Virus record (IMG/VR): IMGVR_UViG_3300017746_000003
Span: 37,915 to 101,914 of that record
Length of the DNA: 64,000 nt
DNA from: a virus
Direction: 5' to 3' (one strand)
Numbering within the stretch: position 1 is the first letter of the stretch; each line of letters begins with the position of its first letter. Below the pieces are notes generated by a model. The model had not been told where the DNA came from. It searched no databases and worked only from the letters and a program-made list of their open reading frames with translations. Both the position numbers and the translations under genes were made by a program. This document shows, piece by piece, positions 36,520-54,178 of the stretch.

Positions 36520-39500
36520 ATGAGTTTTCAGTTAAATTCCGACAGAGAAACTATTAGAGCCATTGCTCCTACTCTAATTGGATCTCAAGAATTATCCATT
36601 AGGGCAGGTTCTGGTTCTGACGAAAAGGAAGTACTCAGAACTCTACTTGATCCTGGGACAGATTTACCGCGAGTCGGTATCAATAGGACTGGAAATAGAA
36701 TTGACAGGGTTGTAGTAAATTTAGGTGGTACTGGATACACTATTCAACCAACTGTTAATATTGAACCACCTCCAGCTGGTGGTACTCAAGCAGTAGGTTC
36801 TGCAATTATTGATGAAGGTTTTGTTACTGCCGTTCTTATTGACAATCCTGGTAAAGGATACATTACTGCTCCTGCTGTAACAATTAGTGGTGGTAATGGT
36901 ACAGGTGCTCAAGTCGAAGCATTCCTTGATACTGTTGATTTTGAACTTGACATTAATGGTGCTATTAGAACATCTACGTCGATTATTTCAGACACGGCGA
37001 GAATTCTAAACCTAGATATTGATAACTTCATCACTCCAGATGCTAAGTTTAGAGCACCTGATCTGAAAACTTATATGAACAACACGGGCATCCCATGGAC
37101 TGCCCAAACTATTGTTCAGAAAGATGCTTATAGGTATAGAGGTCCAAACGTTTATCAAGCACTGAATGCTGGCGAAACGGGAACTGTACCACCTCTGCAT
37201 AAAGATGGTATTGAAACTAATAATGAAGTTCAATTCAAGCATATTGGTTTTAGAGTAACTGATCCTTCGGCGTTCCAGTATAATGAGACTGGAGAATCTG
37301 GAGAGTTCCCTCGTTCTATCACACCTCTACTTGGTGATAGATCTACTAAAATTGCAACTACAGAATACGTCCTCAACCTAGCAACGAATGACGTTGGTGG
37401 TCGTATTTACGTTTCAGCACAGATTGGTTCTGACCTAAACGATGGTCGTTCTGCTGTTGCTCCTGTTAGAACAATCAAGAAGGCAGCACAACTTGCATGG
37501 TCAACTCCTGGTGTCAAGGAGACTCTTATTGTTTCTGGTGGTGATTACGTAGAAGATAATCCAATTTCACTACCACCTGATGCATCAGTTGTTGGTGATA
37601 ACTTACGTTTGGTTATCATTCGTCCTGCTAACCCAAGAAAGCACATCTTCAAGTTCGGTGACAAGAACTATGTCATTGGTGTTACGTATCGCGACCAGGT
37701 TGACTCTACTGGAGATGCGGTAGCAACTTGGGACTTTGCGATGGTCTTTGACGACAAGCAAAGAATCAACTATGACTATACAGCAAATGGAGATTTCGGA
37801 ACTTCTTTCCCAATTGGAACACAAATTTTTGGACCAGAAAAATTCCGTGCAGACTTCCAAACAAACACAGGTCTCTCAAATCTTACATCAAATTTAGCAG
37901 TCAAAGGTATCAACACTGGTGCTGAAGGTATTATTAATGAAGTAAACTTTGGATCTATCGTTGGACCACAAGCTTATATTTCTGGTAAACTTGATTTTTC
38001 TGTTACCAGTGGCGCATTTACAGCGGGTGAAACTTTCTTGTTTGGTGGTACAGGGTCTATCAAATGGACTCCAAATACACCATATACAATTGGACAATTA
38101 CTTTGGGCAACTGATAATGTTTATCAAGTAGCTGTTGCTGGTACTTCTGCTGCATCATCACCTATTCACACCACAGGAACAGTTGCTACTGGTCCCGATA
38201 CACTAGAACTTACATTCCTTAGAGATGCATACGAATTCGTATCTACTGATATTAGATCAATTAGAGCAGAAGGCGAAGTTGTTTTTGAAGAAACCGACAT
38301 TACTGATGCTCTGCCTCTCGTAAGAATTGATTTCTCCAAGCAAGGCACTGCAGAAGTTTCAACTGGTGGTTTCCAAGATCCTAATGTTGTAGAAGATAAT
38401 GGTGGTATTATATTCTACACCAATGCTTTGGTTGGTAGGCAGAACACTCATGATTTTAAGGAAGGACAGGAAATCTTTATTGAGGGAATGCCTACCAGTT
38501 CTCCTGATCTATCTTTCCTAAATGGAAAGCAAAGAATTTACAAAGTTCTGGAAGATGCTGATGGTCGTTCAAGACGTTTTGTAATCCCTAAGAAAACTAC
38601 GATCACTACAACTGATAATTTTGATCCAGGTCAATTTTCATCTGTAAGAGCTTATGGTAAGTCAATTACCATCTCCTTGCTGAACTCTCCTAATAGATTC
38701 CCAATGGCAACACCTGTTGCCAGAAGATTCCAAGATGCTTGTTTGCAAATTAGAAACAACGTAGAATTTATTGCAGATGAAGTTGTTGGAAAAGTCAATG
38801 ATCAATTTAAGAAAGAATATTATTCTGTCTACGAAATTGGTGGCACTCCAGATTCTACACTTACTCCAACTGATGTAGACTATGATCCTGCTACTGGCAT
38901 CGCTACATTCACAGTAACTAGTCATGGACTTAGTATTGGAGATGGCGTTAGAATTACGGATAATTCTATCACACAAACCTGTGCGATGGATGGATATAAG
39001 ACAGAACATACTTCACCTAATTCCCATCATTATTCTAGCGGAAAGACTCTACCAATTCGTTCTTCAGGATTTACAACTGATCAGTTTGAACTTTTTGTTG
39101 GCATCTCTGGTCCTGACCAGCAATATACACCTACTGATGTAACTTACGATCCTGCAACTGGAAATGTAAATCTAACAATTGGTGCTCATACATTATCTGT
39201 TGGAGAAGGTATTGTTATTGATGACAATTCGTTGTCCTTTACGTGTGACATGGATGGCGATCAGTCAGTTAAGTCTTATCCACGTCCTGGTATCGATCCT
39301 TTTGCTAGCAGATCTATTCCTATTACAGAAATTTCTGCAACTAGTATTACTATCAATGGAGGAATTTCTGGTCCCAATAAGTATTTCCAACCATCTGCTG
39401 TAAACTATAACGCTGCAACTGGTGACATGACTGTCACAGTTGGTCAGCATGGACTCGGAGTTGGACGCAATGTTGTTCTTGCGGATAACTCATTCACATT

Positions 39501-42500
39501 CACTTGTGATCAAAATGGATATGCAACCGAGCATACTTATCCACGTCCTGGACAAGATCCACAAGCAGGTAAGTCTATTGCTATTACTGATGTAGGAACC
39601 AATTCCCTAACAGTATCTGGAGCAACTTACACCGCTTCAAGTGGTCAAGTTGACATCACTACTTCCGCACCACACGGAATGCAAGAAGGTGATTATATCT
39701 TGTTTGAAGATAACTCACTAACCTTTACGTGCAACCTGGACGGGAATGTAGTCAGTAAAAATTATCCACGTCCTGGTTATGACTACCCTAGCGGAAGATG
39801 GTTCCCAATTAGCAACATTTCAGCAAGTGGTTTTAGAGTTAATATTGGACCTTCTAGTTATACTGGAGTACATGCTTTTGTTTCCGCAACAAACAATGGT
39901 CTAAAACATCAAGACGGAACATTTACAATTAATGTTGGTAACGCAGGTAGTGCATCAGGATCAAATCATCAGTTTGTAAATGCAACTGCTCAAGCAATTA
40001 AGCACGAACCACAATCTGTCCATACGTTTACTGGTTCAACATCTAATTCAGTAAAACATCTACCTCAATCCGCACATACGTTTGTAAGATCTGCACCAAA
40101 CGCTCTATCTATTGGTGGTTCTACTCTCAAAATTTATCTCGGAACATCTACTTTCGTACACACATATGTAAGTGGTGGTGTTGTAACTTACAATTCTCAA
40201 AATTATAATATTACTAATTTTGTTTATGATAATATTTCTACTGGCGAAGCAACTATTACCCTAGCATCTCCAGTTGCTGCTTTGTCTGAAGATGCTACTA
40301 TTAGAATTTCGGATTTAGTTGTAGAGTGTGTAGTAGATGGTGTTACTACCCAAAAAACTTATCCAAGTTTTAGCATCCCTGTAAACGATAACAAGTGTCG
40401 TAGAGATGTCGGACATTTCATTAGTGCAATTACTAGAGACCTTGAGTTTGGTAGCAACTATAACGTTATTGATGCAGCGAAAAAGTATATTGATGGTACT
40501 AACACCCAGATTGATTTTGTCAATACCGAAATTATTCAGACAGTACGTGCTCTAGAATATGCAAGAGAACTGATCACTTTTGCTATGAGAAAGTGGCGTA
40601 CTGGAACTGGAGCTCCTGGTCAAGCAATTTATGTTCCTCAATATTCTCAACTTGACAGATATTTTGACCCAACAATTATTGATGATATTTCAACTCCTGC
40701 TTGTGCTAACGTAGCATCTGCTATTGATACACTAGCATATCTGTTTATTGATGTTCTTGCTAATGATACCAGTGGAACTTATCTAGATGGTGCTTATCTA
40801 ATTGCTAGAAATAGAGATTTGATTGCTGATGAAGCATACAAACTAGCAATGATCCAATACCCTTCTCTTGGATTAGGTAACATTGATGAGCGTAAGTGTC
40901 GTAGAGATATTAACTTAATTACTGGCGCTATAATTAGAGATCTATCACTGGGAGGAAATGCTGGTATTGTCAATGCAGCAGAATTGTATTTCACAGGAAG
41001 TGCCCTAACTGGAATACCTGCATCTGAACTTGCTCCTACAAGGTTTGCATTCGAGAAAGCAAGAGATTTGTGTATCGCAGCAATGCGTAATTGGACAGAT
41101 GCATCTGGTGCTGCAGTCACCACACCTAATTCAGATATTCCTCAATTTACTGATAGTTCAATTCTTGTAGATCCTACTGGTGTACCTTTATGTGCAAACG
41201 TTGAAGCATCTATTACAACTGCATTCCAACTACTAGATGACATCTTGAGTGGCACTACCTCTCCTGGTGCTACAGTAAGAGATACGGGAACTTTATTTGA
41301 TACTTCAACTATTGCTACTTTCCCTGATAGCATTATTTACGATAGTAAAGGTACAAAACTAACTCCACGTTCTGATTTTGCTGATAATCCTATCATTGAA
41401 GCATCTCCATATACTCAGAACGCATCTGTTATCTCCTTCCTAGGTGGTGGCGGTGCTGAGGTTGATGGTGATAAGGTTAAGCAACCTAACTGCCCCTTCC
41501 CTGGTCTTGAGTTAGACGGAACAGCATCCTTCCCCAATCAGGGTAAGTCGATGGTTGCATCAGCCTTTACTATCGTTTCTTTCGGTGGTACAGGTTACAA
41601 AATTACTAATGATGGTTATGTTCAGTTAGTTTCTGTATTCGTTATCTTCTGTGCCGATGGCGTCCTTGCTGAGTCTGGTGGTTATTGTTCCATCACGAAC
41701 TCTGCTACAAACTTTGGTATCTTTGCTCTCCGTGGCATTGGATTTAGAAAAGATGCATATGAATTTGATGTTGGTTTAATTAGTAATGTATCTTCCACTC
41801 CTACAGGCAGAACAATCTTCACAGTTTCTGGTTTAGGAAGAGAACCACTTGAGCATTATATTGTTAAAATTGATGGATTCTCGAACGTAGATCCAGATAT
41901 TGAATACTTTATTGATACTGTAGAAGGAGTAACAGTTGGTCCTCCTTTCACTGCTCAACTAACACTTGAGTCTGGTTCTGGTGGTGGCGCAGCTTTAAAA
42001 AATGACGCTACTGATAACGCAGTTTCTGTTGGTACTTTGGTTGGTGAAACAGTAAGACTTCACAGACCATCTATTGTTAACTCGTCTTCACATACGTGGG
42101 AATTTGCAGGATCAGGAACCAACTATAATGCACTACCAGAGAACGGCGGTACTAAAATTGAAGCATACGAACAAGTTTCCGAAAACTATGGTCGTGTATA
42201 TGTCTCAGGTACTGACGAACTAGGCGACTTTAAAGTTGGAACATTTGCGAGAATTGAAAACAGAACTGGTAATATTACTTTCACAGGTACTGTTACAATT
42301 TCGGAAGTTGAATTCTTGAAACTAAAAGGTGGCGACGTTGTTGTTACTGGTTTCGACGCATCCAACACACTTGGTGGTGCAAATACTACTAACTCTAAAC
42401 TGCCAACGCAGAAAGCAGTTAAAGATTACATCACCAATAATCTCGGTCCATATCTAAACAAACCATATTCAACTAACCCTGTTCCTAGAGCACTGGTTGA

Positions 42501-45500
42501 ACTTACTGATTCTGGTAAGATCTCGGAAGATCAGATTCCCCCTCTACGTCCTTTCCAAGTATTTACGGTTGCAAACCAATCAGAAAGAGTTGCTATTGAA
42601 GGAGCACTTGCTGGTGATATTGCAATTCAACAGGATACTAACTCTTCATTCATTTTAAACAATGATAATGATAGTTTGTTTGTATCGTTCCCAATTGATT
42701 CCACTCTTCAATTCACCATTGGTGACATCTTTACTGGCAGTAATTCTGGCGGTAAAATTCAATCAACTGAATATAGAGAAGGTGTTGTTTATCAAATCAG
42801 TATTACTGATAATGGTTCTGGTTATGTTACTCCCCCTGTTGTAACTATCTCTGGTGGTAATCCTCAAGCAGGTGCTGTTTCAGCATTTGCTACTTGTTCG
42901 ATTGCAAATGGTCAAGTTGTCCTGGTCGAGATTCAACTATTCAATAACTATATTGGTGGTAAAGGATACACTACTGCTCCTACAGTTACGTTCTCTCCTC
43001 CAGCAGGTTCTGGAACGCAAGCAGCTGGTGCTGCTATAATTGAGTCCAGACTCTATGGTGATATCGTCAACAATATCAAGATAGAAGATACAGATGATAT
43101 CGAATCTAGTGATATTCCTGCCGAGACTATTGCTATTACCCGTGTTATTAATACTTCTGCGAGTGATAGTAATAACTGGGTATCTCTATCTTCCAATCAA
43201 ATTGCTGCTAATGACATTACATCTGGTGTTATTTCTACCGCAAGATTAGCATTTACTTCAGATGCTGCAAACTCCTTCACATTCCTTAGAGGAGATCAGT
43301 CATATAATCCTGTTATTCAATCACTCAAGGGTGCTGAGACTAGATATTTTGCTAAGATTACTTCACAAGCAAACAGCAGTTCTTCGCAATTAGTTTTTGC
43401 TACTAATTCAGATGTACTTCTTGGTCATGAAGTTGTAGCAAACATTAATGGTATTCAACCTAATACTAATATCTCTGGTATTCTTACTGCTGCTGGAACA
43501 ACCACAGTCTCAATTGATAATCCACTAACAGCTACAATTCCAGTCAACACAGTTATTGAATTTGAGCGTGGTTCATCTCCACTAACATTTGAATCATCAC
43601 TTACTCAAGGAGACTTTATTGAATCCGTTGTTATTGCAGCGGGTGGATCTGGATTTACTGATGGTCAATTCTTTGATGTAGAACTAGATGGTGGATCTGG
43701 TACAGGACTCAAAGCAAATATTATTGTAAGTGGTGGTACAGTTTCAGATCTAACACTTACTTCTACTGGTGTTGGATTCCTAAATGACTTCACAGTCACT
43801 TCTGCTCCAGCAGCTATTGGTTCTGGTACTGGTTTAGTTCTACTTGCAAAACTCAGTACAGTCAATAAGCAATTTGCAAACGTTGCTGTTGATATCTCTA
43901 GAGTTTCTGATCTAACTATTTCTGCTGACGAATACGGAACAATTGGTGTTGCTAGATTCTATAAAGATCAATTTAAAATTGGTCTTGCTGGTAATGGTTC
44001 TATTCAACTTAAGACTGGAGCAGACTCTGGTCTTGATGCTGACCTTCTCGATGGTGTTCAAGGATCTTTCTACCTTAACGCAGGTAATCTAAACGCAGGT
44101 GTTCTGCCCGTTGATAGATTATCTGGTACTTATAATATTAATATTGCTAACCAGTCTGGTAGTACATTAAGACTCAAGTCTTCTACAAGTAACCCAGCAT
44201 CGAATCCAAACCCTGATTCGTTTAACGTTGGTATAATTGCAGATACTAGAAATAATGCTGCTGATGGTCTAGCAGATGGTGGCACACGTCACGTTACAAT
44301 GACTATCAGGAATGGTGGATCTGGATTTGATGCAACATTCGGTGGTGTAAGACAACTTGCATTCACTGATAATGATAATATGTATCTTAGAGGTTCTGGT
44401 TCTACCCTAGCAACCTTTAGTACATGGGCAAAGATCTGGTCTTCCCAGAATGATGGCATCAACTCTGGACTTGATGCTGATAAACTTGATAGTCGTCAAG
44501 GAACTTTCTATCAAAATGCTATCAATACAAATGAAGGCACATTCAGTGATCTTAGAATGCCTTCTCACCAAACACAGAAGGACTTCCAAGATAGAGTTAG
44601 AATTCTTGATTGGACAGGTCAACCAAGATTTAAAATTCTTGTTAGAGATGAACTATTAACGGCATCTCCATTCTTAGTTGGTTTGCCAGTTAACTTGTAT
44701 GATGCTCAAGGTCTTGCTCCTGGTCGTATTTCAATTACTGATATTGCCATCAACCAAGATGCCAATGATCCTTCTAATAATTTCACTCTAATTACAGGTA
44801 CACTAACAACAGGTAACTTTATTGGAGCGATTGCAATTGGTGATACCGCAATCAACTATCCTTTCCAAGATTTTAGTATTGCGGACCTAGACGCTAATGC
44901 AGATGGACTACCCGATGGTACATTTGAAGTTGGAGGACTAGAAAGTAGTGGTGGTAATGCCAGATTGAAACTTGGTAGAAACGATGGTATCTCTGCTTCA
45001 GATCCTTCCGTCTACTTCAGATCTTCTCTCAACCCATCAACTAACTATAGTTCTGCAATTATTGCTACTGGTGGTAATTCCACCGATGGTTCTGGTTCTC
45101 TGGAATTTAAAGTATCAGATGTAAATCAGTTAACTCTATTAGGCAACATTATTTGGAATGAAGGTAATGTAGTATTCAACTCCTCTAATGTATTATCAAC
45201 AACATCACTGAAGTCTGCTGTAATGAGAGACACTAGTGGAGACTTTAGTGCTGGAACAATCACTGCTTCTCTAACTGGTGCTGCTTCACTTAACGTTCTT
45301 AAGGCAGGCGATACAATGTCAGGTCTGCTCTCCATCTCTGGAGTAGCGGTAGGACAGCAAGCATTGAGCGTATCTGGCAGAGGAGATTTCCTAAGCAATA
45401 TTACAGTTGCTGCTGACCTAACAGTCAACACGGACACATTGCACGTTGATGCTATAGATGATACAGTAAGCATTGGCACAACTACTTCTGATTCTGCAGT

Positions 45501-46527
45501 AAAACTTCTGATTGTAGAAGATGGCGATCAAGATGTTGTCCTGAGAATGTATTCAACTCCTAATAGTGGAACACAATATGACTCAAGACTTGAACTTCTT
45601 GGACAGAGTGGCACTCTAGATGAGGGTCTCCAACTCATGTATGACAACTCTGTTGGTGACGTGTACTTCAAGCAACTATACAATTCTCTAACAACAGAAG
45701 TTGCAATACATTTCAGCACTGGTGCATTTACTGACGCTCTAACGATTACTGGTAACGGCAATCTGGGTGTACAGATGACTGCCAGTGATGCATATGAGTT
45801 GGATGTAAATGGATCTTCAAGATTCAAGACTGCTCTTAGCGTTGGTCGTGCAGATAGCAATGCTGGTGCTCCTGCAATTTTCGCAGGCGCAACTGGTGGA
45901 TCTAATGGAGCAGGTGGTTATCTAAGTAACTTCCGTGTTGGTAACCAACTTCTACAAGCAGATACTTTTGAAATCACACCTAGTGATGGAACGCAGGGTG
46001 CTCTAACTTGGAAATCTACTCCAGCACTTGCTATCCAAGGTTCCGAGAACCGAGTTGCAATCAATACTCTTCAGTTTGGTGGTACTGATACTACAGTATC
46101 TCCACAGGTTCAAAGAGAATATCAACTGAACATCCAAGGCGATATCAACATCAATGGTCTGGTCTTCCAGAACAACGCTGAGTTCGTTACTTCCAGATGG
46201 ACAGAATCTGATAATGAACTGGATATCTACAGAGAGTCTAAGGTCTGGATTAACCCAGATTCAAGTGTTGCTGGATTTACTGGCAACCCCGACTATGATC
46301 TACAACTTGGTGGAGGTGGCAATGATGGTCACTTCGGACTACATGGTGTAATGTACATTAGAGATACCCCTCAGTGGATTGATACTACTGGCATCATCAA
46401 AAACTCCGCTAACACATTGTCAGAAAATGTAATTATTCCCGCAAATGCTAATGCAATGTCCATTGGTCCAATTACAATTCAACCAGGCATCACAGTAGAT
46501 GTCGTAGGTAACTGGGTAATTATGTGA
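36520..46527 (+). CDS. Giant modular tail-fibre protein, 3335 aa
   Basis: Likely long tail fibre or baseplate fibre. Modules in order: GTGY/GKGY beta units (residues 65-120); a pectate-lyase-like opening (IGSDLNDGRSAVAPVRTIKKAA, about 300-365); four YPRPG-type repeats (782-1108); four short HxF...KH units (about 1110-1195); a duplicated KCRRD helical domain (K1292 and K1459); LPTQKAVKDYI near 1970; two SGLDADxLD fibre units (about 2503 and 2648); and a C-terminal IIPANANAMSIGPITI...NWVIM cap. It replaces T4 gp10-gp12 or long fibres positionally. It probably contacts the cyanobacterial surface. Confidence 0.75.
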   Translation: MSFQLNSDRETIRAIAPTLIGSQELSIRAGSGSDEKEVLRTLLDPGTDLPRVGINRTGNRIDRVVVNLGGTGYTIQPTVNIEPPPAGGTQAVGSAIIDEGFVTAVLIDNPGKGYITAPAVTISGGNGTGAQVEAFLDTVDFELDINGAIRTSTSIISDTARILNLDIDNFITPDAKFRAPDLKTYMNNTGIPWTAQTIVQKDAYRYRGPNVYQALNAGETGTVPPLHKDGIETNNEVQFKHIGFRVTDPSAFQYNETGESGEFPRSITPLLGDRSTKIATTEYVLNLATNDVGGRIYVSAQIGSDLNDGRSAVAPVRTIKKAAQLAWSTPGVKETLIVSGGDYVEDNPISLPPDASVVGDNLRLVIIRPANPRKHIFKFGDKNYVIGVTYRDQVDSTGDAVATWDFAMVFDDKQRINYDYTANGDFGTSFPIGTQIFGPEKFRADFQTNTGLSNLTSNLAVKGINTGAEGIINEVNFGSIVGPQAYISGKLDFSVTSGAFTAGETFLFGGTGSIKWTPNTPYTIGQLLWATDNVYQVAVAGTSAASSPIHTTGTVATGPDTLELTFLRDAYEFVSTDIRSIRAEGEVVFEETDITDALPLVRIDFSKQGTAEVSTGGFQDPNVVEDNGGIIFYTNALVGRQNTHDFKEGQEIFIEGMPTSSPDLSFLNGKQRIYKVLEDADGRSRRFVIPKKTTITTTDNFDPGQFSSVRAYGKSITISLLNSPNRFPMATPVARRFQDACLQIRNNVEFIADEVVGKVNDQFKKEYYSVYEIGGTPDSTLTPTDVDYDPATGIATFTVTSHGLSIGDGVRITDNSITQTCAMDGYKTEHTSPNSHHYSSGKTLPIRSSGFTTDQFELFVGISGPDQQYTPTDVTYDPATGNVNLTIGAHTLSVGEGIVIDDNSLSFTCDMDGDQSVKSYPRPGIDPFASRSIPITEISATSITINGGISGPNKYFQPSAVNYNAATGDMTVTVGQHGLGVGRNVVLADNSFTFTCDQNGYATEHTYPRPGQDPQAGKSIAITDVGTNSLTVSGATYTASSGQVDITTSAPHGMQEGDYILFEDNSLTFTCNLDGNVVSKNYPRPGYDYPSGRWFPISNISASGFRVNIGPSSYTGVHAFVSATNNGLKHQDGTFTINVGNAGSASGSNHQFVNATAQAIKHEPQSVHTFTGSTSNSVKHLPQSAHTFVRSAPNALSIGGSTLKIYLGTSTFVHTYVSGGVVTYNSQNYNITNFVYDNISTGEATITLASPVAALSEDATIRISDLVVECVVDGVTTQKTYPSFSIPVNDNKCRRDVGHFISAITRDLEFGSNYNVIDAAKKYIDGTNTQIDFVNTEIIQTVRALEYARELITFAMRKWRTGTGAPGQAIYVPQYSQLDRYFDPTIIDDISTPACANVASAIDTLAYLFIDVLANDTSGTYLDGAYLIARNRDLIADEAYKLAMIQYPSLGLGNIDERKCRRDINLITGAIIRDLSLGGNAGIVNAAELYFTGSALTGIPASELAPTRFAFEKARDLCIAAMRNWTDASGAAVTTPNSDIPQFTDSSILVDPTGVPLCANVEASITTAFQLLDDILSGTTSPGATVRDTGTLFDTSTIATFPDSIIYDSKGTKLTPRSDFADNPIIEASPYTQNASVISFLGGGGAEVDGDKVKQPNCPFPGLELDGTASFPNQGKSMVASAFTIVSFGGTGYKITNDGYVQLVSVFVIFCADGVLAESGGYCSITNSATNFGIFALRGIGFRKDAYEFDVGLISNVSSTPTGRTIFTVSGLGREPLEHYIVKIDGFSNVDPDIEYFIDTVEGVTVGPPFTAQLTLESGSGGGAALKNDATDNAVSVGTLVGETVRLHRPSIVNSSSHTWEFAGSGTNYNALPENGGTKIEAYEQVSENYGRVYVSGTDELGDFKVGTFARIENRTGNITFTGTVTISEVEFLKLKGGDVVVTGFDASNTLGGANTTNSKLPTQKAVKDYITNNLGPYLNKPYSTNPVPRALVELTDSGKISEDQIPPLRPFQVFTVANQSERVAIEGALAGDIAIQQDTNSSFILNNDNDSLFVSFPIDSTLQFTIGDIFTGSNSGGKIQSTEYREGVVYQISITDNGSGYVTPPVVTISGGNPQAGAVSAFATCSIANGQVVLVEIQLFNNYIGGKGYTTAPTVTFSPPAGSGTQAAGAAIIESRLYGDIVNNIKIEDTDDIESSDIPAETIAITRVINTSASDSNNWVSLSSNQIAANDITSGVISTARLAFTSDAANSFTFLRGDQSYNPVIQSLKGAETRYFAKITSQANSSSSQLVFATNSDVLLGHEVVANINGIQPNTNISGILTAAGTTTVSIDNPLTATIPVNTVIEFERGSSPLTFESSLTQGDFIESVVIAAGGSGFTDGQFFDVELDGGSGTGLKANIIVSGGTVSDLTLTSTGVGFLNDFTVTSAPAAIGSGTGLVLLAKLSTVNKQFANVAVDISRVSDLTISADEYGTIGVARFYKDQFKIGLAGNGSIQLKTGADSGLDADLLDGVQGSFYLNAGNLNAGVLPVDRLSGTYNINIANQSGSTLRLKSSTSNPASNPNPDSFNVGIIADTRNNAADGLADGGTRHVTMTIRNGGSGFDATFGGVRQLAFTDNDNMYLRGSGSTLATFSTWAKIWSSQNDGINSGLDADKLDSRQGTFYQNAINTNEGTFSDLRMPSHQTQKDFQDRVRILDWTGQPRFKILVRDELLTASPFLVGLPVNLYDAQGLAPGRISITDIAINQDANDPSNNFTLITGTLTTGNFIGAIAIGDTAINYPFQDFSIADLDANADGLPDGTFEVGGLESSGGNARLKLGRNDGISASDPSVYFRSSLNPSTNYSSAIIATGGNSTDGSGSLEFKVSDVNQLTLLGNIIWNEGNVVFNSSNVLSTTSLKSAVMRDTSGDFSAGTITASLTGAASLNVLKAGDTMSGLLSISGVAVGQQALSVSGRGDFLSNITVAADLTVNTDTLHVDAIDDTVSIGTTTSDSAVKLLIVEDGDQDVVLRMYSTPNSGTQYDSRLELLGQSGTLDEGLQLMYDNSVGDVYFKQLYNSLTTEVAIHFSTGAFTDALTITGNGNLGVQMTASDAYELDVNGSSRFKTALSVGRADSNAGAPAIFAGATGGSNGAGGYLSNFRVGNQLLQADTFEITPSDGTQGALTWKSTPALAIQGSENRVAINTLQFGGTDTTVSPQVQREYQLNIQGDININGLVFQNNAEFVTSRWTESDNELDIYRESKVWINPDSSVAGFTGNPDYDLQLGGGGNDGHFGLHGVMYIRDTPQWIDTTGIIKNSANTLSENVIIPANANAMSIGPITIQPGITVDVVGNWVIM
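38863..39843 (+). repeat. Four tandem YPRPG-type repeats
   Basis: Units start at residues 782, 870, 957 and 1032 (88, 87 and 75 aa apart). Shared pattern: Y-x2-A-T-G, HGLxxGxxVxxxDNSxxFTCxxDG, then YPRPGxDP and a Ser/Ile strand. The first unit has HTSPN in place of the YPRPG core. Confidence 0.85.
39850..40110 (+). repeat. Short HxFxxxxxNxxKH repeats
   Basis: Four encoded units: HAFVSATNNGLKH, HQFVNATAQAIKH, HTFTGSTSNSVKH and HTFVRSAPNALSI, each about 20 residues. They form a His-rich segment directly after the YPRPG repeats. Confidence 0.75.
40393..41330 (+). repeat. Duplicated KCRRD helical domain
   Basis: KCRRDVGHFISAITRDL (K1292) and KCRRDINLITGAIIRDL (K1459) lie 167 residues apart. The 15-base core AAGTGTCGTAGAGAT is identical in both copies. 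Each copy continues with similar helices ending in a CANV segment (ACANVASAIDTL and LCANVEASITTA). Confidence 0.8.
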
Positions 46528-46566: not shown

Positions 46567-47625
46567 ATGTCTAGTCTAAACGTAGGAACTGTAACTCTGT
46601 CTAACGGACTGACACTTCCTTCATATACATCAAGTCCAGATAACAGACCATCACATAGTGCTGGTAGGACTATCTATGATTCGACTTCGGATACTATTCA
46701 GATATCTGATGGATCACAATGGATTAGTGCGGGTTCTGCGGGTAGTGGTTTGATTACTGCTACTGGCGGTGAAGTTACATTCTCTGGTGGATATAAAGTT
46801 CACACATGGTACAATGTAGGAGAGTATAATTTTAATGTAACGGGAGCTGCTGGTGGTGCTACTGCCGAAGTTCTTGTGGTAGCAGGCGGTGGTGCTGGTG
46901 GAACTATTGGTGGCGGTGGCGGTGGCGGTGGCGTTTGCTACCATGGAACTTACCCAATCTCAACTGGTTCTTATGATGTAAAAGTTGGAGCAGGCGGATC
47001 TACACCTTTGTCTGGTTATCCTGTTGCTAAAGGTCAATCTGGAGGTAATTCTGAGTTTGGAACACATACCGCATTTGGCGGAGGTGCTGCTGGATCATGG
47101 GGACCTAATGCTAGAGAAACTGGAGAACCAGGAGGTTCTGGCGGTGGTGCATCTGGTCCTGCTCCCAGACAACCACAAAGAGGAGAAGCAACCAAAGGTA
47201 GTGCTCCTGGTGGCGGTGTTACTCATGGAAATCCTGGTTATAGAAACGGCAATAATACTTCTGGAACACACTCTGGTACTCATACTGGCGGTGGTGGCGG
47301 CGGTGCTAACCCCAACAATACAGTTAATGGAAGAGTCGGTGGTGATGGCATCACCTACATGGGTCTAACTGTTGGTGGTGGTGGCGGTGGTGGAACCCAC
47401 GAAAACTATGGTACTGCTCCAATCACAACTCCTGCTGCTCCTGGTGGCGGTGGTCGTGGTGGATCTAGATCATCGCAATATGCAGGTGGCGGTGGACAAG
47501 GTTGGGGCGAACCAGGACAAGTTAACACTGGTGGCGGCGGAGGCGGCGGCTGGTATAATGGTACTGGTAATGGTCAAGGTGCTGCTGGTGGTCCTGGCAT
47601 CGTTCGTGTTCGTCATACAATCTAA
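46567..47625 (+). CDS. Glycine-rich adhesin-like protein 1, 352 aa
   Basis: The N-terminal 60 residues (VGTVTLSNGLTLPSYTSSPD, GSQWISAG) resemble the attachment domain of cyanophage fibre proteins and of the 51539 paralogue. The rest is about half Gly in runs such as GGGGGGGG and GGGGGGANPN, with short variable loops. Polyglycine-sandwich domains of this kind form the receptor-binding tip of some myovirus fibres (gp38-type adhesins). Probably presented on the tail fibre to bind the host surface. No catalytic motif. Confidence 0.75.
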   Translation: MSSLNVGTVTLSNGLTLPSYTSSPDNRPSHSAGRTIYDSTSDTIQISDGSQWISAGSAGSGLITATGGEVTFSGGYKVHTWYNVGEYNFNVTGAAGGATAEVLVVAGGGAGGTIGGGGGGGGVCYHGTYPISTGSYDVKVGAGGSTPLSGYPVAKGQSGGNSEFGTHTAFGGGAAGSWGPNARETGEPGGSGGGASGPAPRQPQRGEATKGSAPGGGVTHGNPGYRNGNNTSGTHSGTHTGGGGGGANPNNTVNGRVGGDGITYMGLTVGGGGGGGTHENYGTAPITTPAAPGGGGRGGSRSSQYAGGGGQGWGEPGQVNTGGGGGGGWYNGTGNGQGAAGGPGIVRVRHTI

Positions 47626-47628
47626 TAT

Positions 47629-48126
47629 ATGTTTTACAATGTAGAGGAAAATTTCCTCAATAGTGAAGAGTTTGAACAACTAACTAAACAAACAATAAAC
47701 AATCCTTATTTCCCGTTGTATTTGAAGAACCGAGTAGCGTCGGCGTCTTCAAACGACGGGATTTATTTTACCCACAATTTTTTCTTTGCTGGCGAGGTAT
47801 GTAGTGATTACTACGATCATCTTTCTCCTATTATAGAAAAAATTAAAACTAAAAAATTTCTAAGAATTCAATTAAATTTATTTCCCAAAACTACTGAGAT
47901 CGTGCGCCACGACTGGCATACAGATATGCTTTGGGATCATAGAGGTTGTATAGTCTACCTAAATACTAATGATGGGTCAACGTTATTAAAAGAAGATGAT
48001 GAGAATGCTATAAGCATTCGTTCTATATCAAACAGAGCATTATTTTTCAATCCAGCAAAACCTCATTGTAGTACAACATGTACTGATTCTGAATTCAGAA
48101 GCAATATTATTTTTAATTATGAGTGA
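47629..48126 (+). CDS. 2OG-Fe(II) oxygenase-like protein A, 165 aa
   Basis: Short dioxygenase-fold protein. Iron ligands H97-T-D99 (DWHTDML) and H146 (AKPHCSTTC), with R157 (EFRSNII) as the 2OG-binding residue. The DxxGCIVYLNTNDGST segment is the jelly-roll core strand typical of phage members. It is the first gene of the modification cassette, three bases after adhesin 1. Probable hydroxylase; substrate unknown. Confidence 0.75.
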   Translation: MFYNVEENFLNSEEFEQLTKQTINNPYFPLYLKNRVASASSNDGIYFTHNFFFAGEVCSDYYDHLSPIIEKIKTKKFLRIQLNLFPKTTEIVRHDWHTDMLWDHRGCIVYLNTNDGSTLLKEDDENAISIRSISNRALFFNPAKPHCSTTCTDSEFRSNIIFNYE

Positions 48127-48790
48127 ATTATATAATGTTTTTTCTATACCCGTATGGAAAACAAAAATAACTAAAAATGATTATGACAAAGATCTCATTC
48201 TCAATGAGATGCTGTACAATTTTAATGTAGATCCCAAAAGAAATACTTGGGATAAGGTAATGCCAACTACCATGAAAAGTAACTGGCACCATTCCAATAA
48301 TGACGAGGCAGACGAAAAATTTAAATCTATCAGTTACAAAGACTCTGGATTGACTTCTGTTATAGACTCAAAGGTTAGAGAATTTGTTTCTCACCTTGGA
48401 TTAAATTCCAGCATCAATTATTTTTTTCAAATAACTAATTATACAGTATCTACAGAAGGTTACTTCCTCACCAGTCATGGTCATGGTTGTGACTCTTTTA
48501 GTTCTGTGTTATTTGTGCAATTTGATAAACTTAATCACCCCTCTACATATTTTAATAATCCGTTTAGTTCATCAGATCAAACTAGATGGTTACAGAAAGA
48601 CCTATATGATTCGTTTGATAACAAAAATTCATTTTTTAGTTACATGCAAGATACATGGTCAATTGATACTGACGAAGATGATTACATGATTTTTCCAGGA
48701 CATGTCAAACACGAAGTTCCTACTGTAGGAAAATCAAACAAAGAACGAGTAACTATTTCATGCAATATTAAGGTGTACAAAAATGTCTAA
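48119..48790 (+). CDS. 2OG-Fe(II) oxygenase-like protein B, 223 aa
   Basis: Follows the layout of putative phage 2OG oxygenases that begin with a short IPVWKTKI segment. Candidate metal residues are H120-G-H122 (SHGHGCDSF), a variant of the usual HxD, and H195/H198 (PGHVKHEV), with R210 (KERVTISCNI). The missing Asp of the HxD motif is odd and may change the metal or the activity. Eight-base overlap with the upstream gene and eight-base overlap with the halogenase gene. Confidence 0.65.
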   Translation: MSELYNVFSIPVWKTKITKNDYDKDLILNEMLYNFNVDPKRNTWDKVMPTTMKSNWHHSNNDEADEKFKSISYKDSGLTSVIDSKVREFVSHLGLNSSINYFFQITNYTVSTEGYFLTSHGHGCDSFSSVLFVQFDKLNHPSTYFNNPFSSSDQTRWLQKDLYDSFDNKNSFFSYMQDTWSIDTDEDDYMIFPGHVKHEVPTVGKSNKERVTISCNIKVYKNV

Positions 48791-50339
48791 TGAAATTAAT
48801 TCAATTACTATAGTTGGTGGCGGTAGTGCTGGATGGATGTCTGCCGCTACAATGATTAGGTTTTTTCCAGACAGAAAAATTACTATCATAGAAAGTCCAG
48901 ACTACCCAATCGTAGGAGTTGGTGAAAGTACACTAGGACATATCAATCAGTGGTTAGATCTGCTAGGAATTCATGAAGATGATTTTATGAAGGAGTGTGA
49001 TGCTTCTTACAAATTAAGTATTAAATTTACAGACTTTTATGCAAAAGGAGATGGTGGTTATCATTACCCATTTGGACCACCAATGTTGGATGGAACTGAA
49101 CTTGGGTTTAATGATTGGCAAGTATTAAAACATTTTTCTCCTGGTATTCCTGTACAAGATTTTGCCAGATGTTATAATCCTATAACCCTTTTGGCAGAGC
49201 AAAATAAAATTGATAAAAATGAGAGTGGTCACTTAGATAATTTTAATTTTGCAAAAGATGCTGCATATCACTTTGATGCTGTTAAATTTGGACAATGGTT
49301 GAAAAAAAATTATTGCCTTCCTAAAGGTGTAGAACTTATTTCATCTTCTGTAAAGAATGCTATCGTAGGTGCAGATGGAGTAGAATCATTAATTCTCGAA
49401 GATGGTACAGAGCATTCTGCTGACATGTATCTTGATTGCACAGGATTTAAAAGTATGCTGTTAGCAGGTGCTTTAAATGAGGAGTTTGTTTCTTATAGAG
49501 ATGTTGTTCCTAACAACAGAGCATGGGCAACTAGATTACCTTATACAGATAAAGAAAAACAATTAGAACCATTTACTAATGGAACTGCTTTATCATCTGG
49601 TTGGGTATGGAATATTCCTTTGTGGAGTAGAATTGGAACAGGTTATGTGTATAGTGATGATCACATCACACCAGAGGATGCGTTAAAAGAATTCCAAGAA
49701 CACATAGGAAGAGATGATCTTGAGTTTAGAGATATCAAAATGCGTATTGGAATTCACAAAAATGTGTGGAGTAAAAATGTAGTTGGTATTGGTCTAGCAG
49801 GAGGTTTTATTGAACCTTTAGAAAGCAATGGATTATTTACTGTACATGAGTTTCTACTCAAACTAACAAAATCTATTTCCAAACCTTTTGTAAACCAATT
49901 AGATAGAGACATTTTTAACATGTCTGTCCGTGATATATTTGATACATTTGCTACTTTTGTAGGTCTTCACTATAGACTTAGTTCTAGAAACGATAGTCCT
50001 TATTGGAGAGATATTACAGAGAGATCTAATCTATGCGAAGAAATTTTAAAAATTCCCCAAATGCAAACAGATTTTAGACATCTAGCAGTAGCAAAAATGA
50101 TTGATGATAAATTCTGTAACGGAGGACAACCTTATATTGCTACAGGTATGCATTATCCAATTGCAGATGAATCAACAATTTGTGCATGGGGATATCATAA
50201 TGAGGTAAACTATAAAAAAATAGCACAGGAATCTGCGTTACGATTCTCTAGAAGAAAACATTTATGGCAATGTGTGGCGGACATTGCTCCAACATTGTAT
50301 GCACATTTGGCAGATAAATATGAATATGAGGTAAATTAA
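48783..50339 (+). CDS. Flavin-dependent tryptophan-type halogenase, 518 aa
   Basis: Member of the FADH2-dependent halogenase family, which adds Cl, Br or I to electron-rich substrates. The FAD-binding GGGSAGW lies near residue 12. The catalytic Lys is at K77 (SYKLSIKF, PrnA K79 equivalent), the signature W274-V-W-N-I-P279 is complete, and the Glu/Ser pair is at E347-S348 (EPLESNG, PrnA E346 equivalent). A related viral enzyme, VirX1 of cyanophage Syn10, is known to iodinate small molecules (from memory). A separate flavin reductase, needed for activity, is not seen here and may come from the host. Likely functional; substrate unknown. Confidence 0.9.
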   Translation: MSNEINSITIVGGGSAGWMSAATMIRFFPDRKITIIESPDYPIVGVGESTLGHINQWLDLLGIHEDDFMKECDASYKLSIKFTDFYAKGDGGYHYPFGPPMLDGTELGFNDWQVLKHFSPGIPVQDFARCYNPITLLAEQNKIDKNESGHLDNFNFAKDAAYHFDAVKFGQWLKKNYCLPKGVELISSSVKNAIVGADGVESLILEDGTEHSADMYLDCTGFKSMLLAGALNEEFVSYRDVVPNNRAWATRLPYTDKEKQLEPFTNGTALSSGWVWNIPLWSRIGTGYVYSDDHITPEDALKEFQEHIGRDDLEFRDIKMRIGIHKNVWSKNVVGIGLAGGFIEPLESNGLFTVHEFLLKLTKSISKPFVNQLDRDIFNMSVRDIFDTFATFVGLHYRLSSRNDSPYWRDITERSNLCEEILKIPQMQTDFRHLAVAKMIDDKFCNGGQPYIATGMHYPIADESTICAWGYHNEVNYKKIAQESALRFSRRKHLWQCVADIAPTLYAHLADKYEYEVN

Positions 50340-50341
50340 TT

Positions 50342-50938
50342 ATGGCATATGAAGCGATGTGGTATCAATCACATTTACCAGATGAGTTAATTGATCCATT
50401 GGTATCAACTTTAGAACAATCTGATAATTTTATTGATTCGGAAACTAAAGGTGGATTAGCATTAGCAGTTAGAGATAGTTCAAACCAATGGATTCCTGAT
50501 ACTCATTGGATTTGTGGATTGTTATGGCATTATGTTACTCTGGCAAACGATAGTAATTTTGGTTATGACATTAAAGAATTTGATCATAATTCAATACAAT
50601 ATACTAGATACAAAACTGGTCAATATTATGGATGGCATAAAGATGACGGAGTGGGAAGTATAATTTCTCCTGATCCTAAGCACCCAGTTGAATCTTTTAT
50701 TGATAGAAATACTAAACAGATTAGAAAATTGTCTGTAGTTGTCCAGTTATCTTCACATGAAGATTACACTGGCGGAGAATTTCAAATGCTAGAAGATCAA
50801 AATAAAACTTTTTTTGCACCAAAAACAAAAGGAACTATTATTATTTTTGATAGTAGACTTCCTCATAGAGCTAAAAAAGTATTGTCTGGTGAAAGACGAT
50901 CTTTAGTTGCTTGGGTAACTGGACCCCAGTGGAGATGA
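50342..50938 (+). CDS. PKHD-type 2OG-Fe(II) hydroxylase, 198 aa
   Basis: Close to the PKHD-type (prolyl-4-hydroxylase-like) family. Core residues are H99-K-D101 (GWHKDDG), H175 (LPHRAKKV) and R185/R186 (GERRSLVAW). The segments RKLSVVVQLSSHEDYTGGEFQ and KGTIIIFDSRLPH are typical. Enzymes of this family hydroxylate proline or other residues in proteins. It follows the halogenase after a two-base gap and overlaps the next gene. Confidence 0.85.
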   Translation: MAYEAMWYQSHLPDELIDPLVSTLEQSDNFIDSETKGGLALAVRDSSNQWIPDTHWICGLLWHYVTLANDSNFGYDIKEFDHNSIQYTRYKTGQYYGWHKDDGVGSIISPDPKHPVESFIDRNTKQIRKLSVVVQLSSHEDYTGGEFQMLEDQNKTFFAPKTKGTIIIFDSRLPHRAKKVLSGERRSLVAWVTGPQWR

Positions 50939-51519
50939 GTATGAATTGGAATGATTGGTCTGTTATTGTAGTAAAAAATATTATAAATCCTGTATTTTTA
51001 TTTGAACCTGTTCCTTGGGAACGAGGACAATATAGTTATGAGTCCAAGGGAAATGTTATTCATGTTCCTGATGAAGGACAAGTTAGTGGTAGTTTGTCTA
51101 GATATAATCACCCAAAATTTAGGCAATTGCATTTTGATGTAAAATCTAAAATAGAAAATGTAATTAATGATCCTCTGTATCCAACATACTTTTATGATAG
51201 ATTTTATTTTAAAAAACAACTACTAGAAAAACATGTGGATAGACCTGCATGTGAAGTAAGCATCTCTATTAATTGCTCGCATAATTTAGATTATGACTGG
51301 CCAATATGGTTTACAACTCCAGATGGAGATGATATCCCGTTGATTACAAATCCTGGCGATGGGGTAATTTACAAAGGATGTGAACGACCTCATTGGAGAG
51401 AACCAATGGAAGGAAATTCAGAATCATACTATCATCAAATGTTCATGCACTACGTGCGTAGAGATGGTCCTCATCTAGAACATGCACATGATAGATGTAA
51501 TACTATAAATAGAGTATAG
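50935..51519 (+). CDS. 2OG-Fe(II) oxygenase-like protein C, 194 aa
   Basis: The ATG at 50935 is preferred because of its ATGA overlap with the upstream stop; the frame also opens at 50911. Putative ligands are H100-V-D102 (EKHVDRPACEVS) and H153 (RPHWREP), with R155 nearby. The NPGDGVIYKGCERPHW region is characteristic of this superfamily. Completes the four oxygenase-like proteins flanking the halogenase. Substrate unknown. Confidence 0.7.
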   Translation: MSMNWNDWSVIVVKNIINPVFLFEPVPWERGQYSYESKGNVIHVPDEGQVSGSLSRYNHPKFRQLHFDVKSKIENVINDPLYPTYFYDRFYFKKQLLEKHVDRPACEVSISINCSHNLDYDWPIWFTTPDGDDIPLITNPGDGVIYKGCERPHWREPMEGNSESYYHQMFMHYVRRDGPHLEHAHDRCNTINRV

Positions 51520-51538: not shown

Positions 51539-52753
51539 ATGTCCGAAATTAATGTTGGTGATTTAAACGTATCTACCGAATTTAACTTACCCCTTTATAA
51601 TAGTTCTAACAGACCCGTGAATCCTGCTACAGGATTCATGATATTTAATACTACCGAAAATAAATTGCAGGTATGGACTGGATCTCAATGGAAGAGTTTT
51701 GGTCAACAAAATTATGATATTAGTGCAACTGGCAGCGTAGTTACTAACGATTTAACTGGTGACTATAACGGATACAGAGTTCATAGGTTTACTGGGGATG
51801 GAACTATAACAGTCAACCAAAGTAATCAAGATGGTGGTGTAGAATTTCTACTAATCGCTGGGGGAGGCGGTGGTGGTGGCGTCATCGGCGGTGGTGGTGG
51901 TGCTGGTGGTGTAATCTATAGAAGAGAACTTTATCTAGCACCAGGTACTTATAATATTTCCATTGGTGGTGGTGGCGCAGGAGGAACTGGATGGAATAGT
52001 CCACAGCAAGAAGGTCGCGCAGGGACTCCATCTGTATTTACCGATAATGCTGGATTTAGTTATGAAGCAGTAGGCGGTGGTGGAGGTTGTGGTCATGGCG
52101 GTGCTACACCAAATAGAATTGCTGGTCAAGGTGGTTCTGGTGGTGGTTCTGCTAATATCTCTAGAAGAGGTGGCAATGCAATTGGTAAAAACTTCGGACC
52201 TCAAGCAACAGATAAAGCACATGATATCAGATCTGTGTACTTGAGTAGTAACGATGCTATGGCTGATGGTGATGCACTTGGTAGAAGTGCTCAAAGTTGG
52301 GATGCCATCGAAACATCAACTAATGAACACCAAGGAGTTCAAGGAAACGCTGGTGGTATCTGGGGTGATGGAGACGCTGGCGCTGGTGGTGGTGGATTTG
52401 GCACTAATGGTGGCAATGGTGGTGCTCCCAGAGATACTGGTGGCGAAGGTGGGCACGGAGGATACTTTGATATCAGTGGATCAATGGTTGGTTATGCTGG
52501 CGGTGGTGGTGGCGGTGTCCGAGGCACAGGTCGCCGTCGTGGCACAAAAGCAGGTGACTATGGTGGAGGAGATGGAGGCAGGGCAACTGGTGCCCCCGTC
52601 AATTTTGGTAGTCCCTCACCTAACAATGCTGAAGCTGGCGCAACTAATCGCGGTGGCGGTGGCGGTGGCGGCGGTTATAACGCCCCACGTGGCGGTGCTG
52701 TAGGTGCTCCAGGTGGATCTGGAGTTTGTATTATTCGATATAGGAAATCATAA
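51539..52753 (+). CDS. Glycine-rich adhesin-like protein 2, 404 aa
   Basis: Paralogue of the 46567 product. The N-terminal 55 residues match it (INVGDLNVSTEF, NRPVNPATG, TGSQWKSFG), followed by an RVHRFTGDG strand and a polyglycine tip with long Gly runs. Loops between the Gly runs differ strongly from adhesin 1, as expected for receptor-binding surfaces. It closes the modification cassette and is followed three bases later by 52756. Confidence 0.75.
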   Translation: MSEINVGDLNVSTEFNLPLYNSSNRPVNPATGFMIFNTTENKLQVWTGSQWKSFGQQNYDISATGSVVTNDLTGDYNGYRVHRFTGDGTITVNQSNQDGGVEFLLIAGGGGGGGVIGGGGGAGGVIYRRELYLAPGTYNISIGGGGAGGTGWNSPQQEGRAGTPSVFTDNAGFSYEAVGGGGGCGHGGATPNRIAGQGGSGGGSANISRRGGNAIGKNFGPQATDKAHDIRSVYLSSNDAMADGDALGRSAQSWDAIETSTNEHQGVQGNAGGIWGDGDAGAGGGGFGTNGGNGGAPRDTGGEGGHGGYFDISGSMVGYAGGGGGGVRGTGRRRGTKAGDYGGGDGGRATGAPVNFGSPSPNNAEAGATNRGGGGGGGGYNAPRGGAVGAPGGSGVCIIRYRKS

Positions 52754-53110: not shown

Positions 53111-53296
53111 ATGGACACTGAACAACTGAGAAAGAATTTTGATGAGCAAATCGCTAGTACAGATAAGCAAATTTCTGAACTAGAAGCAAACCTTGCTAAA
53201 GCAAAAGAATACAAATTGAAACTAATTGGTGGTATTGAAACTCTAGATTTGCTCAACCCCAAAGAGGAAACTCCTTCCGAAGAAGAATCTGAGTAA
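53111..53296 (+). CDS. Small coiled-coil protein, 61 aa
   Basis: Almost entirely heptad-patterned helix in the first 40 residues (NFDEQIASTDKQISELEANL), then an acidic disordered tail. I recall short coiled-coil proteins of this type before the neck genes in cyanophages. It could serve neck or fibre attachment. No catalytic features. Confidence 0.65.
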   Translation: MDTEQLRKNFDEQIASTDKQISELEANLAKAKEYKLKLIGGIETLDLLNPKEETPSEEESE

Positions 53297-53347: not shown

Positions 53348-54178
53348 ATGGCTACACCAACAACTAAAGCAGAACTAATTGCATATTGTGAACGCCAATT
53401 AGGTGCGCCTGTCCTGCAAATCAATATGGATGCCACCCAAAAGGATGACATCATAGATCAGGCGTTGCAATATTATCACGAATACCATTTTGATGGTGTC
53501 GAAAGGATGTATCTAAAGCATCAGTTTACTGCTGCAGAGGTAACTCGTTTCACTGAAACTAATGCTGCATCCACGTCACCTGATGGAACTGGGTGGGAGA
53601 ACAGGAGTAACTACATTGAAGTTCCTGAACTTGTTATAGGTATTCAAAAAGTTTTTGGAGTCTCTTCAAATTTCTTGAGGAATAACCTTTTTGGTATGAG
53701 CAATCAATACTATTTGATGGACCTGTTTTCTTTCTCATCAGGTTCGGCATTTAGTTTTGGTAATTTTGACTTAACAAATTACTATATGATTAAACAGCAC
53801 TTTGAAACTATTGATATGGTTATCAATACAGGTGCGTTTGTTGAGTATAGATTTAATAAAAGACAAGATAGATTATATGTAGATATTGATAAATCTAGAA
53901 TTATAGAAGATCAATATTTACTTATTGATTGCTATAGATACCTGGATCCAGATGTACATACTCAAGTTTATAATGATAGTTTTGTAAAGAGATATGCTAC
54001 TGCTCTCATGAAGAGGCAGTGGGGTCAAAACTTGATTAAATATAACAACGTTTCACTTCCTGGTGGCATTAATCTTAATGGTCGCCAACTATGGGAAGAC
54101 GGAAACAGAGAAGTTCGTGAGTTGGAATCTAGAATGATGATAGATTATTCACTCCCACCAATGGATATGATCGGATAA
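53348..54178 (+). CDS. gp13: Neck protein gp13
   Basis: Gp13 forms the neck that seals the head after packaging. Opens with TTKAELIAYCERQLGAPVLQI, the family's conserved N-terminus, and has DDIIDQALQYYHEYHFDG near residues 37-55. Length 276 aa (T4 309). The start is the ATG behind the combined terminator and promoter. Followed after one base by gp14. Confidence 0.9.
   Translation: MATPTTKAELIAYCERQLGAPVLQINMDATQKDDIIDQALQYYHEYHFDGVERMYLKHQFTAAEVTRFTETNAASTSPDGTGWENRSNYIEVPELVIGIQKVFGVSSNFLRNNLFGMSNQYYLMDLFSFSSGSAFSFGNFDLTNYYMIKQHFETIDMVINTGAFVEYRFNKRQDRLYVDIDKSRIIEDQYLLIDCYRYLDPDVHTQVYNDSFVKRYATALMKRQWGQNLIKYNNVSLPGGINLNGRQLWEDGNREVRELESRMMIDYSLPPMDMIG

Follow-up and report, generated by a model that had tools for sequence, protein, structure and literature searches.

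The window analysed here, the last 64 kb of the 101,914-base record IMGVR_UViG_3300017746_000003 of a marine cyanobacterial virus, has T4-like neck, terminase and sheath genes and also seven co-oriented genes in which four putative 2-oxoglutarate (2OG)-Fe(II) oxygenases (oxA to oxD) and a predicted flavin-dependent halogenase are bracketed by two glycine-rich (Gly-rich) tail-tip adhesins, adhA and adhB (Table 1). The spacings from adhA to adhB are, in order, 3, -8, -8, +2, -4 and +19 bases; that is, the five enzyme genes are tightly coupled by overlaps of 8, 8 and 4 bases and one 2-base gap, as an earlier note on this DNA had described. The identical gene arrangement occurs in the sequenced Synechococcus phage isolates Sf-CH11 and Sf-CH1a (82.5% DNA identity), and the cassette recurs in several IMG/VR contigs with halogenase identities of 66-100%, showing that it is no product of chance or assembly. 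The same note's suggestion that the genes probably share one late promoter found no support: octamers resembling late promoters occur upstream of adhA, oxC and adhB, at distances of 41, 29 and 35 bp respectively, but across the window they are no more frequent than chance would give.

Table 1. Genes of the adhesin slot and its borders (positions are those of the window; aa, amino acids).
Feature	Position	Strand	Length (aa)	Basis
Giant structural/fibre-like gene, left border of slot	36520..46527	+	3335	Open reading frame; orthologue annotations
adhA, Gly-rich tail-tip adhesin (30% G)	46567..47625	+	352	PF21722 E 7e-9; composition
oxA, putative 2OG-Fe(II) oxygenase	47629..48126	+	165	H97xD99, H146, R157; weak PF13640
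oxB, putative 2OG-Fe(II) oxygenase with HxH	48119..48790	+	223	PF13759; H120xH122, H198, R210
VirX1-like flavin-dependent halogenase (predicted)	48783..50339	+	518	PF04820; VirX1 6qgm; motifs; tree
oxC, PKHD-hydroxylase-like 2OG-Fe(II) oxygenase	50342..50938	+	198	PF13640; 3dkq; H99xD101, H175, R185
oxD, prolyl-4-hydroxylase-like 2OG oxygenase	50935..51519 (from ATG; alternative TTG, the mechanical start, at 50911)	+	194	HxDR ... HxR; AlphaFold2 model
adhB, Gly-rich tail-tip adhesin (28% G)	51539..52753	+	404	PF21722 E 5e-13; AlphaFold2 model
Conserved open reading frame, right border of slot	53111..53296	+	61	Followed by gp13
gp13	53348-54178			

A Pfam search placed the central enzyme in PF04820 (E 2e-101). 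Alignment located all three signatures named in the earlier note, namely K77 (invariant among 18 aligned halogenases), WxWxIP (WVWNIP at 274) and E347 of EPLESNG, together with a flavin adenine dinucleotide-binding GGGSAG at residue 12. The best solved relative is cyanophage VirX1 (Syn10/Syn9; PDB 6qgm), 38% identical, and a FastTree phylogeny that combined 91 phage sequences with cellular relatives put both enzymes in one large phage clade that includes a single sequence from a metagenome-assembled genome (MAG). We class the window enzyme as a VirX1-like flavin-dependent halogenase with predicted activity; the label tryptophan 7-halogenase PrnA is an annotation name only, and VirX1 is the nearer of the two. 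The VirX1 sequence gave a full-length match (1271 bits) to the second of the two Syn9 halogenases, and the island there consists of three Gly-rich open reading frames (ORFs), a 164-aa ORF, two halogenases and then a run of oxygenases. VirX1 shares with the window enzyme its clade, its catalytic residues and its kind of island beside Gly-rich fibre genes, whereas the window halogenase has its own oxygenase set and Gly-rich adhesins on both sides. Cellular relatives gave no direct clue, because their neighbourhoods, though home to additional halogenases and to large ORFs without labels, have almost none of the island oxygenases.

The MAG sequence, from a Deltaproteobacteria contig (JABDFK010000005.1; L182:7995-9593), is 50% identical to the window's and adjoins efflux-pump genes on a bacterial-looking contig; transfer from a phage is possible. 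One island halogenase (L028:10001-11590) has EPLQSSG in place of EPLESNG, with Gln at the position of the catalytic Glu, and may be inactive or altered.

The oxygenases comprise three HxD-type enzymes (oxA, oxC and oxD) and one with HxH (oxB), as the earlier note had read them. oxC matched PF13640 above the curated cut-off (E 1e-13), kept its motif residues (Table 1) in 121 relatives and had a PKHD-type hydroxylase (3dkq, E 2e-4) as its closest sequence relative. oxB matched PF13759, also above the cut-off (E 1e-6), and is classed in that family with HxH, lacking the canonical HxD/E ... H triad; because this HxH is invariant (100%) in 140 relatives, the iron site of the oxB family may comprise three or four His ligands. 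The match of oxA to PF13640 fell under the curated cut-off (E 0.03), and its HxD, distal His and Arg were kept across an alignment of 81 relatives. oxD had no Pfam or NCBIfam match; its HxDR ... HxR pattern is invariant in 26 relatives, in which the distal His is followed by an invariant Arg at +2 and no conserved basic residue stands at +10.

An AlphaFold2 model of oxD (predicted local distance difference test, pLDDT, 90) adopts a double-stranded beta-helix fold. Searched against the PDB, it gave 545 matches at E<=0.001, of which the best 50 are all 2OG enzymes and the very best is a Pseudomonas putida prolyl-4-hydroxylase solved with EF-Tu (4iw3, E 4.7e-8). Judged by the fold of this model, oxD is a 2OG oxygenase nearest to a protein prolyl-4-hydroxylase. 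The fold likeness tells the enzyme class and not the substrate, because small-molecule enzymes follow closely in the match list. Compared with the bacterial prolyl-4-hydroxylase PPHD, an EF-Tu hydroxylase and the nearest solved fold, oxD is only ~10% identical and has its presumed 2OG-binding basic residue placed otherwise.

Database names pointed elsewhere for two of these families. "Endonuclease V", the name of phrog_274, was rejected for oxA, which has no such Pfam match and carries the HxD...H...R oxygenase signature instead; "ferrochelatase" was rejected for oxD, which has no such domain match and has the 2OG-oxygenase fold. Many cyanophage records carry "ferrochelatase" for oxD relatives and "DNA endonuclease V" for oxA relatives (phrog_2954, phrog_3531, phrog_274). 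Both labels seem to be inherited misannotations of 2OG oxygenases, and they have entered lists of auxiliary metabolic genes.

Both flanking proteins scored above the PF21722 curated cut-off of 24.3 bits (adhA 36.4, adhB 50.1), in agreement with the Gly-rich adhesins that the earlier note had placed on either side of the enzymes. The AlphaFold2 model of adhB had a moderate pLDDT of 72; in a fold search it came nearest to the fibre of cyanophage Pam3 (7ypx, E 8e-4), at a low template-modelling (TM) score (0.28/0.42), so that in this model adhB weakly resembles a cyanophage fibre; a virion location of the window adhesins is predicted. Read by eye and unscored, the N-terminal part of adhA and adhB resembles that of non-Gly proteins occupying the same slot in other phages, and the S-PM2 proteins of this slot are annotated as virion structural proteins. 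The virion proteome of S-SZBM1 lists the fibre block 51-54 and does not list the halogenase (46) or the oxygenases (42-44) (PMC9146016), as expected for enzymes that act before assembly.

The earlier note had proposed a comparative search for co-occurrence of the enzymes with Gly-rich adhesins, and in this search both the halogenases of the phage clade and the oxygenases on the fibre side proved to be strongly linked to them. In 13 whole records, we measured the distance from the halogenase to the nearest Gly_rich_2 match against a null of circular shifts; for the window, adhA was placed by hand from the Pfam result, since the genome search reported adhB alone. The halogenase lay <=8 kb from Gly-rich genes in 12/13 records (median distance 1.6 kb; Fisher-combined p 4.3e-6), whereas the control genes psbA (p 0.75) and transaldolase (p 0.81) of the same phages showed no such linkage. 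Gly-rich ORFs were likewise concentrated around the enzymes in an oxD-anchored sample (26/317 within 3 genes vs 1/173 at >=6 genes, p 9e-5) and in a halogenase-anchored one (30/257 vs 1/62, p 0.008).

A further sample was anchored on gp13 and picked without regard to adhesin or enzyme content. A halogenase was present in 7/14 Gly-rich slots vs 1/16 other slots (two-sided p 0.012), and the sole non-Gly slot with a halogenase is truncated where its contig stops. These counts leave out four phages chosen for their halogenase, except Sf-CH11, which stands for the window clade; that clade was also returned by the gp13 scan itself. Limiting the sample to slots with the giant gene visible gave p 0.32 for the halogenase and 0.14 for two or more oxygenases, a loss of power that arises because long cassettes push the giant gene beyond the 10-kb view. 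The linkage is one-sided, in that slots with a halogenase are nearly always Gly-rich. Overall, the association between enzymes and adhesins is well supported, and the pattern that the earlier note had named as refuting its idea, homologues scattered with no adhesin link, was not observed.

The slot was then compared among sibling phages in which the giant gene and gp13 border it on either side. The giant gene product had no match in a Pfam search, and its orthologues are labelled "structural protein" or "tail fiber-like protein" in Sf-CH11, S-RIM44 and ACG-2014e. On the other side, a 107-aa + strand ORF follows adhB in the window, ahead of the 61-aa ORF, which together with gp13 is also found in Syn1, S-RIM44, S-RIM32, S-H9-2, S-PM2 and ACG-2014e. 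Between these borders, Syn1, S-RIM44 W2_07_0710, S-RIM32, S-H9-2, S-PM2 and ACG-2014e have non-Gly tips, no halogenase and at most one oxygenase; some of these tips are lectin-like, and Laminin_G_3 domains are present in those of S-PM2 and S-H9-2. In S-RIM44 Np_42_0711, Sf-FP1 and Sf-CH11 the tips are Gly-rich and come with one or two halogenases and at least four oxygenase-like genes. Adhesin type and enzymes are thus replaced together between sibling phages. The entire fibre slot can differ within one named species: the S-RIM44 isolate KX349294 (L084) combines three Gly-rich tips with two halogenases and several oxygenases, and KU594607 (L263) has one non-Gly tip and one oxygenase.

Because linkage and co-replacement both involve one adhesin type, the adhesins are a specific and directly testable candidate substrate. 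The reading that we favour, and think reasonably probable, is that these seven genes are a module exchanged as a unit, in which adhesins are joined to enzymes that tailor their residues inside the infected cell. Such a module would consist of two receptor-binding, Gly-rich fibre-tip adhesins and the enzymes that finish them, co-expressed late and acting while the adhesins are synthesised and before virions assemble. The four 2OG-Fe(II) oxygenases would hydroxylate adhesin side chains, with Pro, Asn/Asp, His and Lys as candidates, and the halogenase, dependent on reduced flavin, would add Br, I or Cl to exposed aromatic residues. A tip modified in this way might bind differently, altering adsorption, or last differently in seawater. 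The earlier note had proposed tailoring of fibre or adhesin residues or of a host target, and is partly supported: the linkage and co-swapping stand behind its adhesin part, and the adhesins as substrate are what we infer.

Other explanations account for parts of this pattern. The cassette could make or decorate a small molecule or surface glycan (a secondary metabolite, antibiotic or capsule) and lie beside the fibre genes only because both are late and variable, which we consider unlikely. For a related system, the halogenase/carbamoyltransferase/2OG cluster of S-SSM6a (Iyer et al. 2021, PMC7824862), a role in secondary metabolism or in decorating polysaccharides was published; S-SSM7 has a similar cluster. 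Like the window, these phages have a halogenase and several 2OG oxygenases near gp13, and the S-SSM7 cluster has heptose and nucleotide-sugar genes; their halogenase, however, is of a more distant clade (28%), and they carry carbamoyltransferase and heptose genes. The carbamoyltransferase, methylase and sugar enzymes of an S-SSM6a-type cluster are absent from the window cassette, which also has no scaffold-making gene, precursor supply or transporter. The fold neighbours of oxD do include small-molecule enzymes such as AsqJ and FtmOx1, and VirX1, as Gkotsi in 2019 is said to have found, takes diverse small substrates in vitro. Against a metabolic role, the islands are tied to tip type and swap along with the tip, and even the S-SSM7 cluster starts right after three Gly-rich ORFs. 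Mere hitch-hiking, in which auxiliary genes collect at a hot spot flanked by the giant fibre gene and gp13 and the adhesin link reflects position and not function, would suit the highly variable slot content and the four gene hot spots described in Synechococcus phages (PMC3037559). It is rather unlikely, as typical auxiliary genes such as psbA and transaldolase do not land in the slot, whose contents are nearly all modifying enzymes and tips, and the link holds in contigs of unrelated architecture, with a Tfa-type chaperone or with opposite-strand tips.

That the enzymes modify a host protein during infection (EF-Tu, ribosome, receptor or photosystem) is suggested by 4iw3, the nearest fold to oxD, which hydroxylates bacterial EF-Tu, and by the PKHD and P4H (prolyl-4-hydroxylase) families, which comprise some host-protein hydroxylases. 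It leaves unexplained why the genes track fibre-tip type and not host, and why their presence varies between isolates of one phage species, and we regard it as quite improbable. A part in DNA repair or modification, or in 2-oxoglutarate and nitrogen-status control, was proposed earlier for cyanophage 2OG oxygenases (PMC3037559, PMC9146016) and seems very improbable here: the island copies do not adjoin repair genes, they are of PKHD/P4H-like protein-hydroxylase types, and these schemes have no place for a halogenase.

Several observations also weigh against adhesin tailoring itself. The Gly-rich proteins 48-50 of S-SZBM1, for each of which 8-9 peptides were predicted to be detectable, are not listed in its virion proteome (PMC9146016), an awkward absence that heavy modification or a low copy number could also produce. 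In the gp13 sample, a halogenase is missing from half of the Gly-rich slots, and every p-value is optimistic, since related genomes were counted as independent. S-B64 carries a window-type halogenase in its replication region, distant from its Gly-rich gene. A second halogenase clade, about 28-36% identical, is sited elsewhere than the fibres, near psbA or transaldolase (S-MbCM6, L092; the second halogenases of W01, W03 and W04, near 170-176 kb) or in the heptose cluster of S-SSM7, and may differ in role from the island enzymes. Pfam 2OG matches also occur at many other sites in these genomes, and the step from linkage to substrate is an inference.

More broadly, it is possible, though we hold it only tentatively, that cyanophages and other marine phages exchange kits that pair every Gly-rich, receptor-binding tip with oxidising and halogenating enzymes of its own, yielding brominated, iodinated or chlorinated and hydroxylated adhesins, and that this is the native role of VirX1. 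For VirX1-type halogenases and cyanophage 2OG oxygenases, published proposals range over the synthesis of antibiotics, the repair of DNA and the sensing of nitrogen; our literature search, whose coverage excluded most subscription journals, found no published adhesin-modification role for these enzymes. If such kits exist, they would be a chemical extension of host-range evolution, with larger islands also carbamoylating or glycosylating the tips; post-translational diversification of host-binding tips would alter the prediction of host range from sequence, and the islands would be a source of protein halogenases and hydroxylases.

Islands on other contigs can hold as many as five halogenases, with oxygenases numbering about ten. 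Richer ones add a NodU-type carbamoyltransferase, a GT9-like protein, a Methyltransf_24 protein, DUF6445, JmjC-like proteins and an unnamed ~250-aa family. The carbamoyl-, glycosyl- and methyltransferase-like enzymes would suit modification of oxygenase-made hydroxyl groups and may extend hydroxylated sites on the tips. The ~250-aa family, phrog_7084 (L031:11562-12293 and 44 relatives), had no Pfam or NCBIfam match; it recurs beside island halogenases and oxygenases and is possibly another modifying enzyme. In several islands, a Tfa-type tail-fibre assembly chaperone (PF16778) lies between the Gly-rich gene and the halogenase, and in several contigs oxC-oxD directly precede a Gly-rich gene with no halogenase present. 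In S-MbCM6 (L347, 29354-32673), oxC-oxD directly follow three "sericin 1 precursor-like" ORFs at the fibre end, and this pair may therefore serve more than Gly-rich tips.

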